From contig JAJZOT010000064.1 in NCBI GenBank assembly GCA_021847855.1, positions 1 through 7,956 on the forward strand: DNA of 7,956 nt. Direction: 5' to 3'. Below are positions 3,164 to 7,956 of this stretch, in pieces. Source of the DNA: Thermoplasmata archaeon. GTDB taxonomy: Archaea; Thermoplasmatota; Thermoplasmata; Thermoplasmatales; Thermoplasmataceae. The position numbers and the translations under genes are program-made. Position 1 is the stretch's first letter, and every line of letters begins with the position of its first letter. The notes under the pieces are model-generated. The model ran no database searches and was not told the DNA's origin. It was given only the letters and a program-made list of their open reading frames with translations.

Positions 3164-3190
3164 AGTATCAAATTGATACTATAGTATCAA
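3164..3190. repeat. inverted plus direct repeat AGTATCAA
   Basis: AGTATCAA (3164-3171) and TTGATACT (3173-3180) form a perfect inverted repeat around one A. A further direct copy, AGTATCAA, lies at 3183-3190. It sits between the divergent promoters and is a candidate operator or recombinase arm-type site. Confidence 0.65.
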
Positions 3191-3201
3191 AATAGTACAA
3201 A

Positions 3202-3317: not shown

Positions 3318-3878
3318 ATGAGGGCTATAGTTAGATCATCAGAAAAGTTTCAAGTCAGGATTCTTAGACCATCCGAGTTTGAGGTCCTAAGAGAAGCAAT
3401 GGATAATGACACTAAAAGGATAGCAACTTCATTGTTGCTGACTGGCATGAGGTATGCGGAGATCCAAAGATTCAGATTAAACCCGGATTGGTTAGATGGG
3501 AAATTCATCTACCTGCCGAGAGGGTCGATGCTTAAGGTGAAGGCAAAACAGAAGGAGAGGGCCATAAGGCTATCAGACATGGGCAGGACACTGATAGCAG
3601 ACTTCTTTCAATCATCACTCCCACTGCCTGATCTCCCAGCCTTTGACATGAAGGTGATGAGGCTATCCAGAAAGGCGCTGGAAGGAAATCCAGTGAATAA
3701 CAAAACATTCAGGAAGACGTGGGAATCATGGTTGGTGTTCTATTATCCGGATAAGTCCCTGCAAATCGCTTTAAGCCAGGGGCACAGTACAGTTACCCAA
3801 TACGAGCATTACCTGAATATGCCATTTGAAGAGGAGGACAGGAAAGAGATGAGGAAATGGGTGGAGGGGTGGATATGA
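3318..3878 (+). CDS. tyrosine recombinase/integrase, catalytic core only
   Basis: 186 residues. LTGMRYAEI (41-49) carries the first catalytic Arg at 45. Lys residues in the following beta region (72-79) fit the active-site Lys. KTFRK (129-133) matches the HxxR box with Lys in place of His and the second Arg at 132. QGHS (154-157) supplies the third-position His, and the nucleophile is most likely Tyr165 in EHYLNMPF, nine residues after that His. This is a phage-integrase-type catalytic domain, about half the length of a full SSV-type integrase, with no N-terminal arm-binding domain. It has its own TATA box and a coupled downstream gene, so it looks intact rather than broken. It probably integrates or resolves the element. 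No tRNA gene or clear att core is visible here. Confidence 0.92.
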   Translation: MRAIVRSSEKFQVRILRPSEFEVLREAMDNDTKRIATSLLLTGMRYAEIQRFRLNPDWLDGKFIYLPRGSMLKVKAKQKERAIRLSDMGRTLIADFFQSSLPLPDLPAFDMKVMRLSRKALEGNPVNNKTFRKTWESWLVFYYPDKSLQIALSQGHSTVTQYEHYLNMPFEEEDRKEMRKWVEGWI

Positions 3879-5363: not shown

Positions 5364-5397
5364 TTAGGGAAATTATACGCTTTTGAGCAACAGTATG

Positions 5398-5420
5398 CTT
5401 TATATACCTATTCGTTGGGA
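5398..5420 (+). promoter_or_regulatory. promoter copy 1 of shared 22-base block
   Basis: CTTTATATACCTATTCGTTG then GG. The TATA box starts at 5399, thirty bases before the ATG at 5429, giving a leaderless mRNA. The same block recurs at 5905 and 7401, so identity extends past the TATA box into CCTATTCGTTG. Confidence 0.7.
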
Positions 5421-5428
5421 TATTAGTC

Positions 5429-5839
5429 ATGGAAATTTTAAAGTGGAAAATGAAGAATGGACTGCTTCTAAAGGAAGAAATCAGACGAAAATACAGGGAA
5501 GGCGGTAAGAATTGGGCTGCCATCTGTAAACCTTCGTATGGTAACTCTATTGATAGAAACTTCCTTGAACGCCAGAATTTCCCATTTGTTTACGATTTTG
5601 GTATCGTAAAAGAAGGGGATATCTTGGAATTAGCCTATGATGAGTATATGGGTGGTGAGTTCAGGAACAAGTTTTCAGGATGGAAGAACCGAGATACGAT
5701 AAAGAACAGGGAGTATTACCTTGTTTTGAGGGTTACAGATGAGGAGGTCGCAGTTTATGGCGGTTTTCCGCAATTTGACAGTGTGCTTTCCTTCAAGCAA
5801 TCCGATAAAAATAAGCTAAAAAAACTTGAAATTTTTTGA
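5429..5839 (+). CDS. hypothetical protein, 136 aa, leaderless
   Basis: The ATG sits where transcription should begin after the TATA box, so the mRNA is probably leaderless and there is no ribosome site. The N-terminus is basic and helical (KEEIRRKYREGGKNW). The middle and C-terminus alternate short hydrophobic strands (FVYDFGIVKEGDILEL, EYYLVLRVTDEEVAVYGGF), a beta-rich pattern. The GDILEL turn and beta content could suit a small RNA- or DNA-binding barrel, but I do not recognise the family. It has the first copy of the shared promoter and lies just upstream of the RNA module array, so it may be its regulator or RNA-binding partner. That is inference. Confidence 0.75.
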   Translation: MEILKWKMKNGLLLKEEIRRKYREGGKNWAAICKPSYGNSIDRNFLERQNFPFVYDFGIVKEGDILELAYDEYMGGEFRNKFSGWKNRDTIKNREYYLVLRVTDEEVAVYGGFPQFDSVLSFKQSDKNKLKKLEIF

Positions 5840-5840
5840 A

Positions 5841-5881
5841 TTTTGTGGCCTTTTGGGGAAAAATAGCCCCAAAATGTCGCC
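5841..5881 (+). terminator. strong hairpin with junction motif after the 136-aa gene
   Basis: TTTTGTGGCC begins two bases after the stop region. TTTTGGGG (5851-5858) pairs perfectly with CCCCAAAA (5867-5874), and GGC (5847-5849) can pair with GCC (5879-5881). It may end or protect the mRNA; the T-run precedes rather than follows the hairpin. Confidence 0.5.
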
Positions 5882-5904
5882 TTTCAGGAGAAAAGGAGAG
5901 AAAC

Positions 5905-5926
5905 CTTTATATACCTATTCGTTGAG
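5905..5926 (+). promoter_or_regulatory. promoter copy 2, driving RNA A and following genes
   Basis: CTTTATATACCTATTCGTTG then AG, differing from copy 1 by a single base. The TATA box starts at 5906, so transcription should start near 5934. No other clear promoter is seen until 7401, so RNA A to the 80-aa gene could be a single transcript. Confidence 0.65.
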
Positions 5927-5933
5927 TATATGT

Positions 5934-5999
5934 ATGCAGAGAAATAAAAAAGGCAGTGAGAAGCCAGTAAAATGGCTGTTTTTTAGCCCCTATTTATAG
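5934..5999 (+). CDS. possible 21-aa leaderless peptide overlapping RNA A
   Basis: An ATG at the predicted transcript start opens 21 codons beginning MQRNKKGSEKPVKW and ending FFSPYL before TAG. It lies where the leaderless start of the 136-aa gene lies relative to its promoter copy. However, the same bases form the first two hairpins of RNA A, so this may be chance or a leader peptide that interacts with RNA folding. Confidence 0.25.
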   Translation: MQRNKKGSEKPVKWLFFSPYL

Positions 6000-6260
6000 G
6001 GGTGTTGCCTGATAGAAATATCAAGTATTTACAATCAAATGTAAATTGTAAGCATTATGGCGAGGGAGAAACAAACCATAATGCAGCCTGACGAAAAGTC
6101 GAAAGAATGGGCCTGAAGATTGCATATAATCCCATATATGCATGCTGAACCAAGGAGAATGCCTGGAAACAGGAGTTGTACCGATTCTGATTCTCCGTCA
6201 GAATGGTTAATACTGGTGAGGTTGGCGAGCATCTAAAGGTATTGCAAGCCGAAACATAAA
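5934..6260 (+). ncRNA. structured RNA A, upstream of the 36-aa gene
   Basis: About 330 bases dense in hairpins. AGGCA (5951-5955) pairs with TGCCT (6006-6010), closing a three-way junction with AGCCA/TGGCT (5962-5977) and CCCCTA/TAGGGG (5987-6002). Then follow TTACAAT/ATTGTAA (6029-6051) and the perfect 9-bp GCATTATGG/CCATAATGC (6052-6084). TGCATATA/TATATGCA (6121-6142) comes next, then CCTG-GAAA-CAGG (6162-6173, a GNRA loop). A 10-bp helix with one bulge spans 6180-6207, and AATAC/GTATT closes 6209-6243. There is a promoter in front and a small gene directly behind. It could be a long leader or a separate structured RNA; no known family is recognised. Confidence 0.6.
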
Positions 6261-6266
6261 ATCGCT

Positions 6267-6377
6267 ATGGAGAATGATAAAGAGAATAAAACAGAAGAAA
6301 AGAAAAAAGATGAAGACACTGATAAAAAGAAGATCTTTGCTATTGCAAAGATAGAATTTTCAAGATATCAGTGGTAA
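6267..6377 (+). CDS. 36-aa highly charged protein
   Basis: ATG at 6267, TAA at 6375. The first 22 residues are almost all charged or polar (MENDKENKTEEKKKDEDTD, then KKK), followed by a hydrophobic patch KIFAIAKIEFSRYQW. No ribosome site is obvious, so translation may depend on the RNA A fold. The position between RNA A and a junction motif directly after the stop matches the other modules, which is the main support for it being real. No function is recognised. Confidence 0.45.
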   Translation: MENDKENKTEEKKKDEDTDKKKIFAIAKIEFSRYQW

Positions 6378-6660
6378 TTTGTGGCTTATCTAAGAGGAGA
6401 TAGGAAATTTGAAAGATATGTTGTCCAATGGAATACACGCTGAAATGCGTTAAAACAGGGTGAAGCCTGGGTTCAAAACAGGACTCTGAGTGAGACCATT
6501 CGGAATCACTTAGAGGACGTGAGAACCAAGCATGCGTGTGCGTTTAACGCACATTGATGTGCCTGTAACAAGGCTTGAAAGAACCAAAAGCCCCGTTTGG
6601 ACCCGGGTAAATTCCGAGTAAAATCGGAGTGTTGCCCTTGTGACAGAGATCACAAGGCGG
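6378..6660 (+). ncRNA. structured RNA B, upstream of the 88-aa gene
   Basis: Begins with the junction motif straight after the 36-aa stop. Helices seen: CTTATCT/AGATAGG (6385-6404), ACGC/GCGT (6437-6450), CAGG/CCTG (6456-6469), and GGTTC (6470-6474) with GAACC (6523-6527). The last encloses a continuous 10-bp helix including one GU (6484-6493 with 6506-6515). Then TGTGCGT/ACGCACA (6537-6553), GCCT/AGGC (6561-6574), TCCGA/TCGGA (6613-6628) and perfect 8-bp CCTTGTGA/TCACAAGG (6636-6657). The last helix ends 15 bases before the downstream ATG. The density of helices and lack of any sound reading frame until the end favour a functional RNA. Confidence 0.6.
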
Positions 6661-6671
6661 AGTTTGATTTA

Positions 6672-6938
6672 ATGAAAATCAAAGGATACGTAATTGGAGA
6701 GGATTCTTGGGGCGTTCGCCTTAAAGAAGACGTGAAAATGACAGCTAACGAGATGCCAACAGTCGAAGAGGTTGTGGCAAGATTTCCAAAGATATCTGAA
6801 TTTAAGATAATCGCTTTGGAAGGATTTGAGAAAAATAGAAAAGTAGCCGATCTTGATTGGATCGGAGACGTAGATTCATGTGAAGCTGATGAGATAATAT
6901 CTTGGGAAGCCAGGAATTATAACTCATTCGCAACATAA
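6672..6938 (+). CDS. hypothetical protein, 88 aa
   Basis: I place the start at the ATG at 6672, with GGCGGAG about ten bases upstream. An earlier in-frame ATG at 6597 would run through two hairpins of RNA B and encode an unlikely Cys/Asp-rich N-terminus. The product alternates strands and helices (MKIKGYVIGEDSWGVRL; PTVEEVVARFPKISEFKIIAL; VADLDWIGDV) and is acidic. It could be a small compact alpha/beta domain; I do not recognise it. It lies between RNAs B and C, and a variant junction motif, TTTTGTTGCC, follows the stop without a gap. Confidence 0.7.
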   Translation: MKIKGYVIGEDSWGVRLKEDVKMTANEMPTVEEVVARFPKISEFKIIALEGFEKNRKVADLDWIGDVDSCEADEIISWEARNYNSFAT

Positions 6939-7119
6939 TTTTGTTGCCGTGCAATGAGAATTATACCCTGATTGCACATATAAGGACTGTAGCGGATTTT
7001 AAACGAAGAACCGCACACTTTAATTCACAGACGGGGGTTTGAGGAAAGCCCTGCCTAGGCCCGCAGTGAGTTAGAGAAATTACTAACATAAAAGGGTACG
7101 CTTGTACTAAAATCCGAAA
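6939..7119 (+). ncRNA. structured RNA C, leader of the 80-aa membrane protein
   Basis: GTGCAAT (6949-6955) pairs with ATTGCAC (6971-6977). A long-range 9-bp helix CGGATTTTA (6993-7001) with TAAAATCCG (7108-7116) closes the domain, and its 3' strand ends directly before AAAGGA and the ATG at 7125. Inside are GTTAG/CTAAC (7070-7087), GTAC-GCTT-GTAC (7096-7107) and alternative G-rich/C-rich pairings at 7032-7066. The 5' strand of the closing helix overlaps an alternative hairpin, GCGG (6992-6995) with CCGC (7011-7014). Two exclusive states beside a ribosome site is riboswitch-like; no ligand can be inferred. Confidence 0.6.
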
Positions 7120-7124
7120 GGAAA

Positions 7125-7367
7125 ATGTCAAGCAGATTTAGTCGCCAGATGAGTAATATGGAGCAAAACAACAGTTTTGGAAAAAAAATAAAAAGAAGAA
7201 TTAGAAAATTAGTTTACGTTGACATCTATGCAAGTGGAGTCATGAGTACGGGAGTGGGAATAGCATACTATTTTCATAGCACGCTTGTTGCTATTGGATT
7301 TAGTCTTGCTGCGATTCTCGTCGGACTCGAGGGGCTTTACCTTGCGGGAGATGAGGTTGTAGATTAA
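7125..7367 (+). CDS. small two-helix membrane protein, 80 aa
   Basis: ATG at 7125 has AAAGGA three bases before it; ATG codons at 7149 and 7158 are alternatives. The N-terminus is basic (SFGKKIKRRIRKLVY), followed by two hydrophobic stretches, about 32-50 (VDIYASGVMSTGVGIAYYF) and 53-74 (TLVAIGFSLAAILVGLEGLY). The C-terminus is acidic. Basic residues before the first helix suggest both ends lie in the cytoplasm. The leader is RNA C, and the junction motif follows 6 bases after the stop. It may be a holin-like, toxin-like or transport peptide; no family is recognised. Confidence 0.7.
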   Translation: MSSRFSRQMSNMEQNNSFGKKIKRRIRKLVYVDIYASGVMSTGVGIAYYFHSTLVAIGFSLAAILVGLEGLYLAGDEVVD

Positions 7368-7400
7368 TTATTATTTTGTGGCCTGAAAAGGAAGCGTAGG

Positions 7401-7422
7401 CTTTATATACCTATGCGTTGAG
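7401..7422 (+). promoter_or_regulatory. promoter copy 3, driving RNA D
   Basis: CTTTATATACCTATGCGTTG then AG, one base different from copy 2. The TATA box starts at 7402, and transcription should start near 7430. It starts a second unit with RNAs D and E. Confidence 0.65.
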
Positions 7423-7429
7423 TTATATT

Positions 7430-7740
7430 ATGGAGATGGGGAGTTTATGACAATTTTCACCCAATCTCCGTGTAGCCTAAGAAGCAGGATTAAAAGCAGA
7501 TTACCGTAGTTGGTTGCGGGATATCTGAGAAGAGTGGAGACCTGATGAGGTTGGCATTCGTGCCAATTTCTGTAGATTGATGGTGTTGAATCGTCATTGT
7601 TGGGGTTGAGGAAACTCTTTCCTGATGCATGTTGAATGTATTGGGTTCTATATCGTGGAAATTGCATAGCGATGAGTTATGCAGAAGAAGCGGTAAAAGC
7701 CAACGTAGCCCGGTGCTGATCTATAATTAGCACGTAAGTG
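7430..7740 (+). ncRNA. structured RNA D
   Basis: Begins at the predicted start of promoter copy 3. GGAGATGGG (7432-7440) pairs with CCCAATCTCC (7460-7469) with one bulged A. TTGGCA-TTCG-TGCCAA (7551-7566) is a perfect 6-bp hairpin. AGGAAA/TTTCCT (7609-7623) follows, then TGCATA/TATGCA (7663-7683), then GTGCTGAT/ATTAGCAC (7713-7733) with one GU. No reading frame on either strand is convincing: the 79-codon minus-strand frame across it lacks any ribosome site and would start inside the last helices. It ends shortly before a strong AAAGGAG ribosome site. Confidence 0.6.
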
Positions 7741-7754
7741 ACAAAGGAGTAAAA

Positions 7755-7805
7755 ATGCGAAGGATATGGATGTCTCAGTATATCCATATCCTTTATGTGG
7801 CCTAA
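7755..7805 (+). CDS. possible 16-aa peptide after RNA D
   Basis: AAAGGAG lies five bases before the ATG, one of the best ribosome sites in the right part. The frame encodes MRRIWMSQYIHILYVA and its stop lies within the junction-motif region. The same bases form a 12-bp hairpin, so the peptide and the structure compete. It occupies the place of the small gene in the other modules, which is the main reason to list it. Confidence 0.3.
   Translation: MRRIWMSQYIHILYVA
7760..7793 (+). terminator. 12-bp perfect hairpin at end of RNA D
   Basis: AAGGATATGGAT (7760-7771) pairs perfectly with ATCCATATCCTT (7782-7793) around a ten-base loop, followed by TTATGTGGCC. It is the strongest helix in the window and may define the 3' end of RNA D. 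Confidence 0.55.
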
Positions 7806-7956
7806 ATGGCATGGAGTGAGGGGGCTTGACCCCCCTTTAAGATGAATTACCTAGGAGAACTTCACAAAAGTGCTCCGGGAGTGTTGTCCAAAAAACAGGG
7901 AGTTAAATGCATGATACCGGAACCATATACGCAAGTGTATGACCGGAAACTCACAG
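7794..7956 (+). ncRNA. structured RNA E, cut by the window end
   Basis: Starts at the last junction motif. GGGGG/CCCCC (7820-7835) forms a terminator-like hairpin. GGAG-a-ACTT (7854-7862) pairs with AAGT-g-CTCC (7868-7876), and CATATAC-GCAA-GTGTATG (7924-7941) is a 7-bp hairpin with a GNRA loop. GTGAG (7816-7820) could pair with CTCAC (7950-7954) to close the domain. GGAGTGTTGTCC at 7878-7889 matches RNA B. An ATG at 7911 with GGGAG upstream is open to the window end but lies within the GNRA hairpin, so I do not call it. Confidence 0.5.

Follow-up and report, generated by a model that had tools for sequence, protein, structure and literature searches.

In the window, as we call the whole stretch of 7,956 nucleotides (nt) analysed here, structured stretches alternate with small genes over positions 5840 to 7956. 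Integrated elements of the same layout lie in three Thermoplasmata genomes, named G110, G194 and G294, and their RNAs are termed A', B' and D'. A preliminary description of the window had recognized five structured RNAs, small genes of 36, 88 and 80 amino acids and a possible gene of 16 amino acids. The alternation of structured RNAs with small genes is confirmed and goes beyond chance, as judged by z-scores against shuffled sequence, subject to four corrections. The parts of the array are the following.

5840..5904, plus strand: junction signal TTTTGTGGCC, directly 3' of the preceding gene's stop codon
5840..5904, plus strand: hairpin of 8 base pairs (bp), TTTTGGGG/CCCCAAAA, with a second signal TGTCGCC at 5875 and a purine-rich tail
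5906..5913, plus strand: TATA-like box TTTATATA in a repeated block (5893-5930), putative promoter
5935..6266, plus strand: structured RNA A, with a 5' hairpin, signal GGGGTGTTGCC (5999-6009) and a core; presumed transcript start
6267..6377, plus strand: candidate gene of 36 amino acids; the same slot holds a 49-amino-acid gene in G194 and a 59-amino-acid gene in G110
6378..6671, plus strand: structured RNA B, with 5' signal TTTGTGGC and 3' signal TGTTGCC at 6630
6626..6662, plus strand: 3' bracket of RNA B, consisting of GGAGTGTTGCC, hairpin CCUUGUGA/UCACAAGG (6636-6643/6650-6657) and CGGAG
6672..6938, plus strand: gene of 88 amino acids (P0001), with a distant homologue in the same slot behind RNA B' in G194
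6939..7148, plus strand: structured stretch C, with 5' signal TTTTGTTGCC, internal TGTAGCG at 6988 and TTTAGTCGCC near 7134-7143
7149..7367, plus strand: gene of 72 amino acids, with two membrane segments judged by eye
7373..7426, plus strand: junction signal TTTTGTGGCC together with the second promoter-like block, in which TTTATATA occupies 7402-7409
7430..7791, plus strand: structured RNA D, with a 5' hairpin and signal GTGTAGCC (7470-7477); presumed transcript start
7792..7956, plus strand: stretch E, which starts with TTTATGTGGCC and is cut by the window end

Organization of the array

Each of the five stretches A to E opens with a version of ATTTTGTGGCCT, the five copies being 83-100% alike; this shared opening and the UGUNG signal found at nearly every junction were missing from the preliminary description. 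The block at 5893-5930 recurs at 5386-5423 and 7389-7426, which places a promoter-like block with TTTATATA upstream of the gene at 5429, of stretch A and of stretch D. RNA A has CGAAACATAAAAT (6250-6262) at its end, like RNA A' of the three genomes, while RNA D has a core with a UUCG-capped hairpin and a perfect 12-bp hairpin as its 3' end.

The window holds three or four RNA regions, at least three of them large, and not five separate RNAs. Since the 16-amino-acid frame at 7755 contains the perfect 12-bp hairpin (7760-7771/7782-7793), D and E are probably one region and the possible gene is given up; C and E are the weakest of the stretches as RNAs. Among the small genes, that of 88 amino acids stands as described and that of 36 is kept as a candidate. 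Relatives of the third are 69-72 amino acids long (n=11, among the matches listed); it therefore probably encodes 72 rather than 80 amino acids, and C would extend to about 7148. The structure model of P0001 is poor (predicted local distance difference test 63), and nothing was concluded from it.

Folding energy

Compared with dinucleotide shuffles, as the preliminary description had proposed, the array folds with energies well below expectation, which the ten coding stretches before 5429 do not (z -0.8 to +2.6). On the sense strand the z-scores were -4.4 for A (5840-6266), -6.2 for B (6378-6671), -3.2 for C (6939-7124), -4.9 for D (7368-7754) and -1.6 for E (7788-7956); a second run with other stretch limits gave -4.3, -6.4, -2.1, -4.4 and -2.1, respectively. 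Tiles of 200 nt stayed near zero up to 5800, except for the non-coding tiles 2201 (-2.8) and 3201 (-2.7), and ranged from -1.5 to -4.9 over the ten tiles from 5801 to 7800. The three coding stretches within or adjoining the array (5429-5728, 6672-6938 and 7149-7367) also gave low values, of -3.0 to -3.8. Antisense A (-4.5) and B (-4.3) fold well too, so that energy does not set the strand of these two; antisense C (-1.4), D (-1.6) and E (-0.5) are unremarkable.

Relatives with a shared layout

A search with the P0001 family in 400 genomes found one distant homologue, in G194 (28% identity, E-value (E) 2e-8 for that pair), and the DNA around it repeats the window layout. CGAAACATAAAAT lies at the corresponding place in G194, and G110 and G294 also have it in that context. 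All three integrated elements carry a TATA-like box, A', a small gene, B' and a further small gene, and those of G110 and G194 go on with a TATA-like box, D', a small gene and a conserved gene of 283 amino acids. The order in G194 is a small gene, a TATA-like box, A', a 49-amino-acid gene, B', the P0001 homologue, a hairpin junction, a 113-amino-acid gene, a TATA-like box, D', a 59-amino-acid gene, a hairpin junction and the 283-amino-acid gene. G110 has the same order of RNAs, with a 282-amino-acid gene that is 60% identical to the latter. This 282/283-amino-acid family has no Pfam or PDB match and is clamp-like by eye only; Pfam identifies a separate gene of 319 amino acids, farther along in G110, as a sliding clamp. 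From promoter-like block to next gene, D' spans about 800-900 nt. The G294 contig ends behind B', where by eye the first residues of a P0001 homologue can be read; contig G294:C38, considered as a continuation of this locus, is unrelated.

RNA model R1 (A') matched in 3 of the 117 genomes of the order and RNA model R2 in 3 of the 400 genomes of the class, both under stricter filters; the genomes found were only G110, G194 and G294, with one significant match per model and genome. The pattern GNCGAAACATAAAAT matched in 5 of the 400 genomes versus 7 for a reversed control, and three of the five are real by context. In viral contigs this pattern matched at least 120 stretches, and among the 80 matches listed none is related apart from L122, which has a 33-nt match to the promoter-like region of G110. 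A stricter pattern gave one unrelated viral contig (L169), and the D' pattern found nothing in viral contigs. The promoter pattern TTTATATACCTATNCGTTG led to viral contigs L002 and L003, where it lies inside the coding sequence of one phage type, and to L004, which shares about 25 bases only; all three were rejected.

RNAs A', B' and D' are structured non-coding RNAs with covarying helices. Compared over three sequences, the A' core has 8 of 51 pairs changed on both sides with pairing kept (98.0% of cells paired) and the B' core 18 of 59 (92.7%). The covariation score was reached by 0 of 500 shuffles for A' and B' alike, the count of pair types by 13 of 500 (A') and 1 of 500 (B'), and sliding the partners removes the signal. 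This slid control favours the A' and B' structures somewhat, because only three sequences were available and the structures were derived from the same three. For D', compared over two sequences and without a shuffle control, both partners had changed in 32 of 193 pairs. All three RNAs contain long invariant stretches, and in both G194 and G110 a domain of B' recurs inside D' (E 0.0004 and 0.001 for 38 kilobases (kb) searched, 0.003 and 0.007 for 285 kb, these E-values being rough).

The covariation that the preliminary description had asked for is thus found in RNAs at the same places in relatives (A' and B' in three genomes, D' in two), while the window's own RNAs could be tested at one hairpin only. 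In P0021, a predicted protein whose frame runs through the end of RNA B, the simplest codon changes would turn U6639-A6654 into C-G, one inferred compensatory pair, and C6636-G6657 into U-G. Against this support, an R to Q change in P0018 would, by our own reading, weaken the neighbouring hairpin by one pair.

As a separate observation, the B' domain inside D' lies at L036 5637-5757 and L043 8771-8921 (minus strand) and forms hairpins with AAUGGA-type loops. Adjacent D' hairpins at about 5296-5338 of L036 (minus strand) have complementary loops AUGGA/UCCAU that could form a kissing contact; G194 and G110 have identical loop strings, so there is no covariation at this place.

Exchangeable genes and a possibly optional RNA

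While the order of the RNAs is fixed in G110 and G194, the genes between them are not. A', B' and D' each lie upstream of unrelated genes in the two genomes, and homologous small genes occupy different slots, one family standing behind A' in one genome and behind D' in the other. The only shared pair is that of RNA B in the window and B' in G194, both of which precede P0001-family genes.

RNA B itself may be optional. The predicted proteins P0019 and P0020 start inside the window's 36-amino-acid region in another frame and give (N/D)LWP across the junction, the residues that AATTTGTGGCC would encode, with the P0001 start six residues later. Since an RNA B of about 290 nt cannot fit in this six-residue gap, it appears to be missing from the P0019 and P0020 contigs, to judge from the predicted proteins. 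Those of P0018 and P0021 indicate that the end of RNA B is present.

The junction signal

A typical gene of the operon ends with a stop codon, a U-tract and UGUNG, after which there is usually a small hairpin, in many cases GNRA-capped, or one of the large structured RNAs, then the Shine-Dalgarno-like AGGAG and the next start codon; some junctions read UUUUUUGUUGC immediately before AUG. The signal lies within 30 nt past the stop in 12 of 14 operon-strand open reading frames (ORFs) of G110 and 13 of 19 of G194, as against 0 of 92 and 0 of 111 other ORFs, with operon ranges that were chosen after the signal had been seen; several of the ORFs without it are near variants or frames inside RNAs. 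Eight of the 13 matches of TTTTWTGTNGYG in the whole G110 genome fall within one 9-kb stretch, and 5 of the 8 in G194 lie on the RNA contig; no such cluster occurs in G294, where the operon is cut off, or in five other ATPase-bearing genomes. A stricter version of the junction pattern proved unsuitable, as it finds no copy in G194, where the signal is present. In the window array TGTNGC occurs 12 times in sense (twice inside genes) and once in antisense, compared with two and two in the rest of the window. TGTNGCY occurs 14 times in the window with 5.75 expected, a number reached by 2 of 200 shuffles.

The signal also brackets RNAs. By eye, B' is followed in all three genomes by a 3' signal copy, a hairpin of its own and a GGAG-type sequence before the next gene, the signal being spelled UGUUAC in G110, UGUCAC in G194 and UGUUGC in G294. 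In G194 such a 3' copy also follows both A' and D', in G110 it follows D' and in G294 A' (again by eye); in the window it follows RNA B.

A proposed processing pathway and its alternatives

We propose that a long operon transcript carries at least three large structured RNAs between small genes, and that a factor specific to the element would cut it at the U-tract and UGUNGY signal. Cutting would free the large RNAs, most of them bracketed by the signal on either side, as individual molecules and would leave each small messenger RNA (mRNA) with a fresh 5' end near its start codon; the released RNAs could then act in trans as a conserved set. Cutting is proposed because the signal stands at most junctions and near start codons, is concentrated in the element and brackets most of the large RNAs. 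From sequence, we put at about an even chance the joint proposition that the array forms the promoter-proximal portion of a long operon, carried by an integrating or viral element, and that the operon transcript, started at the putative promoters, is cut at the junction signals into free, trans-acting structured RNAs and small mRNAs. More tentatively, and with somewhat less confidence than we would need to favour it, several dedicated large RNAs cut at the element-specific UGUNGY could together make up an RNA or ribonucleoprotein machine in the life cycle of the element.

Several observations weigh against this proposal. No nuclease was identified, and the U-tract could be a terminator instead of a processing signal. 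The B' brackets UGUUAC (G110) and UGUCAC (G194) deviate from UGUNG, RNA A of the window and A' of G110 have no 3' bracket, and several junctions have no hairpin. Because the A' and B' models miss the window RNAs, the kinship of the latter is argued from the layout, the 3' sequence that A shares with A' and a single gene. The best A' (R1) match without filters, at 6181-6266, is in the expected place and not significant (E 0.29). With the A' profile, the promoter region (E 0.013) and the end (E 1.1) of A are matched in the correct order, alongside one stray hit on the minus strand farther along (E 0.27) and some weaker ones; the B' and D' profiles have no match in the window. Finally, excess structure is also found in coding sequence, in the window (5429-5839, 6267-6938 and 7149-7367) and in the G110 and G194 operons, and a model of discrete RNAs leaves it unexplained. 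Hand-picked operon genes gave a mean z of -3.07 against codon-preserving shuffles (17 genes), compared with -0.54 for 17 others. The unselected test of all ORFs of at least 100 amino acids, which set aside 9 opposite-strand ORFs in the operon, gave a weaker effect (z -1.25 for 18 operon ORFs, -0.38 for 123 others, p 2e-4).

This coding structure lends some weight to the idea that structure merely shields transcripts from exonucleases or RNA-targeting defence, individual RNAs having no specific job. The invariant stretches of A', B' and D' and the specific covariation of their helices suggest particular folds and not bulk structure, and we regard shielding as improbable. A better candidate, though a doubtful one, is that the RNAs stay attached as cis-acting leaders and control the operon by processive antitermination past the U-tracts or by ligand sensing. 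RNAs A and D each come straight after a promoter-like block where a long operon begins, and in that operon almost all genes are followed by a U-tract. Against this reading, B sits in mid-operon and no Rfam riboswitch matches. The riboswitch-like leaders that the preliminary description had suggested lose ground, since the genes behind A', B' and D' in G110 are unrelated to those in G194, instead of each RNA class staying upstream of one gene family; this counts against gene-specific control, not against operon-wide antitermination.

The large RNAs might also be intron-like or cassette-like insertions that recombine at the junction sites, since the predicted proteins imply that RNA B or its 3' end is present in the P0018 and P0021 contigs and absent in those of P0019 and P0020, between two signal copies; small genes are moreover swapped between RNAs in G110 and G194. 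The order A', B', D' is nevertheless kept in these two genomes, and A', B' in G294, each model has its single significant match per genome, no Rfam intron matches and the empty site is not a clean excision, all of which makes insertion about as improbable as shielding. That the array is decayed coding sequence or chance structure, one of the outcomes by which the preliminary description would have been overturned, scarcely deserves credence: ORFs do cross parts of the RNAs, and some predicted proteins of relatives extend into them, but the covariation in relatives, the conserved order and the energies contradict it.

Element and host

Other genes of the window point to a mobile element. An integrase-like protein is encoded at 3318-3878 (PHROG integrase, E 1.4e-8; Pfam Phage_integrase below the cut-off) and an ATPase at 928-1989 (PHROG DnaA-like replication initiator, E 8e-9; Pfam Zot below the cut-off). 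The protein database contains 16 relatives of the ATPase, and a scan of genome_contigs gave one locus, in Candidatus Sysuiplasma superficiale (class Thermoplasmata); matches, some weak or fragmentary, occur in 31 of 400 Thermoplasmata genomes. In G110, G194 and G294 the ATPase match shares a contig with the RNAs, the one in G110 being a fragment with two internal stops. Judging from these sequences, the host is most likely a Thermoplasmata archaeon. P0023, identical to the 72-amino-acid protein, sits on contigs of up to 61,265 bases, and the G110 contig with the RNAs has 1,959,588 bases. Comparison of the window DNA gave one 33-base chance match in phages and none in plasmids; viral contigs held no relatives in scans with the ATPase (single sequence and alignment), the integrase and P0001.

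A perfect 10-bp inverted repeat, GATAGTAGCA/TGCTACTATC, at 1988-2010 overlaps the end of the ATPase gene. Upstream of the integrase gene, a GTATCAA-rich palindrome at 3170-3192 recurs in the Sysuiplasma contig L001 at 2313-2335 and 12546-12567, with weak matches (E 0.03-0.11), and is a possible operator or recombination site. The same contig carries, at 9194-10954, a homologue of window gene 582-989 twice, fused to the ATPase. Contig C1 of G103 has two ATPase copies of equal score (1827309 and 1856740) near its end, which may reflect a duplicated element or an assembly overlap.

Comparison with known systems

The statement that no named RNA family is recognizable holds: Rfam 15 gave no match at gathering score for five relative loci, a single match far below the cut-off for the window at E<=1, and 1, 0 and 6 matches, all far below the cut-off, in three focused searches at E<=5. 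In the window and relative loci the GOLLD, ROOL and OLE covariance models gave no match at or near the cut-off, nor did the group I and group II intron models of Rfam. Hammerhead-like strings (CTGATGAG and CGAAAC) seen by eye were dropped, as the core is incomplete and Rfam has no match.

Processive antitermination leaders, namely the put RNA of phage HK022 and EAR of Bacillus, are short and single. The array resembles them in having structured RNA directly behind the promoter of a long operon with terminator-like tracts, and differs in its three large RNAs, two with a promoter-like block of their own and one in mid-operon. The T4 nuclease RegB cuts polycistronic phage transcripts, and the likeness lies in the placement of a short motif, at boundaries between genes and close to Shine-Dalgarno sequences; here the motif is UGUNGY, the host belongs to another domain, a release of large structured RNAs is proposed and no enzyme was found. 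Like phi29 with its packaging RNA, the element combines a structured RNA with an ATPase. The difference is that its ATPase matches a DnaA-like replication initiator in PHROGs and Zot only below the cut-off, and nothing points to packaging. To our knowledge, no known system interleaves several large RNAs with small genes and uses a common signal at the junctions, and searches of an open-access library, by listing and abstract opening, yielded no described system of this organization. We are looking at what seem to be new RNA families with an undescribed organization.

The nearest counterparts are GOLLD and ROOL, large ornate RNAs of bacterial phages and prophages with unknown function (PMC12286853). 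The likeness is that a mobile element encodes large non-coding RNAs with elaborate folds, D' being of similar size. As to phage or prophage origin, the element has an integrase-like gene and a phage-family ATPase and may be viral, and in relatives the RNAs lie on large contigs. The RNAs described here differ in being archaeal, in lacking an Rfam match, in occurring as several different RNAs per element and in alternating with small genes and a junction signal, and there is no transfer RNA in the window. A cutting function of the junction signal would imply that an archaeal element has a sequence-specific system of RNA processing, and a terminator function would imply a form of antitermination that spans the operon. 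Should all large ornate RNAs be counted as one kind, those of the array would instead be a new member of it. The unexplained large RNAs of bacterial phages are a standing puzzle, to which an archaeal counterpart with several distinct RNAs in fixed order would add an independent new case.

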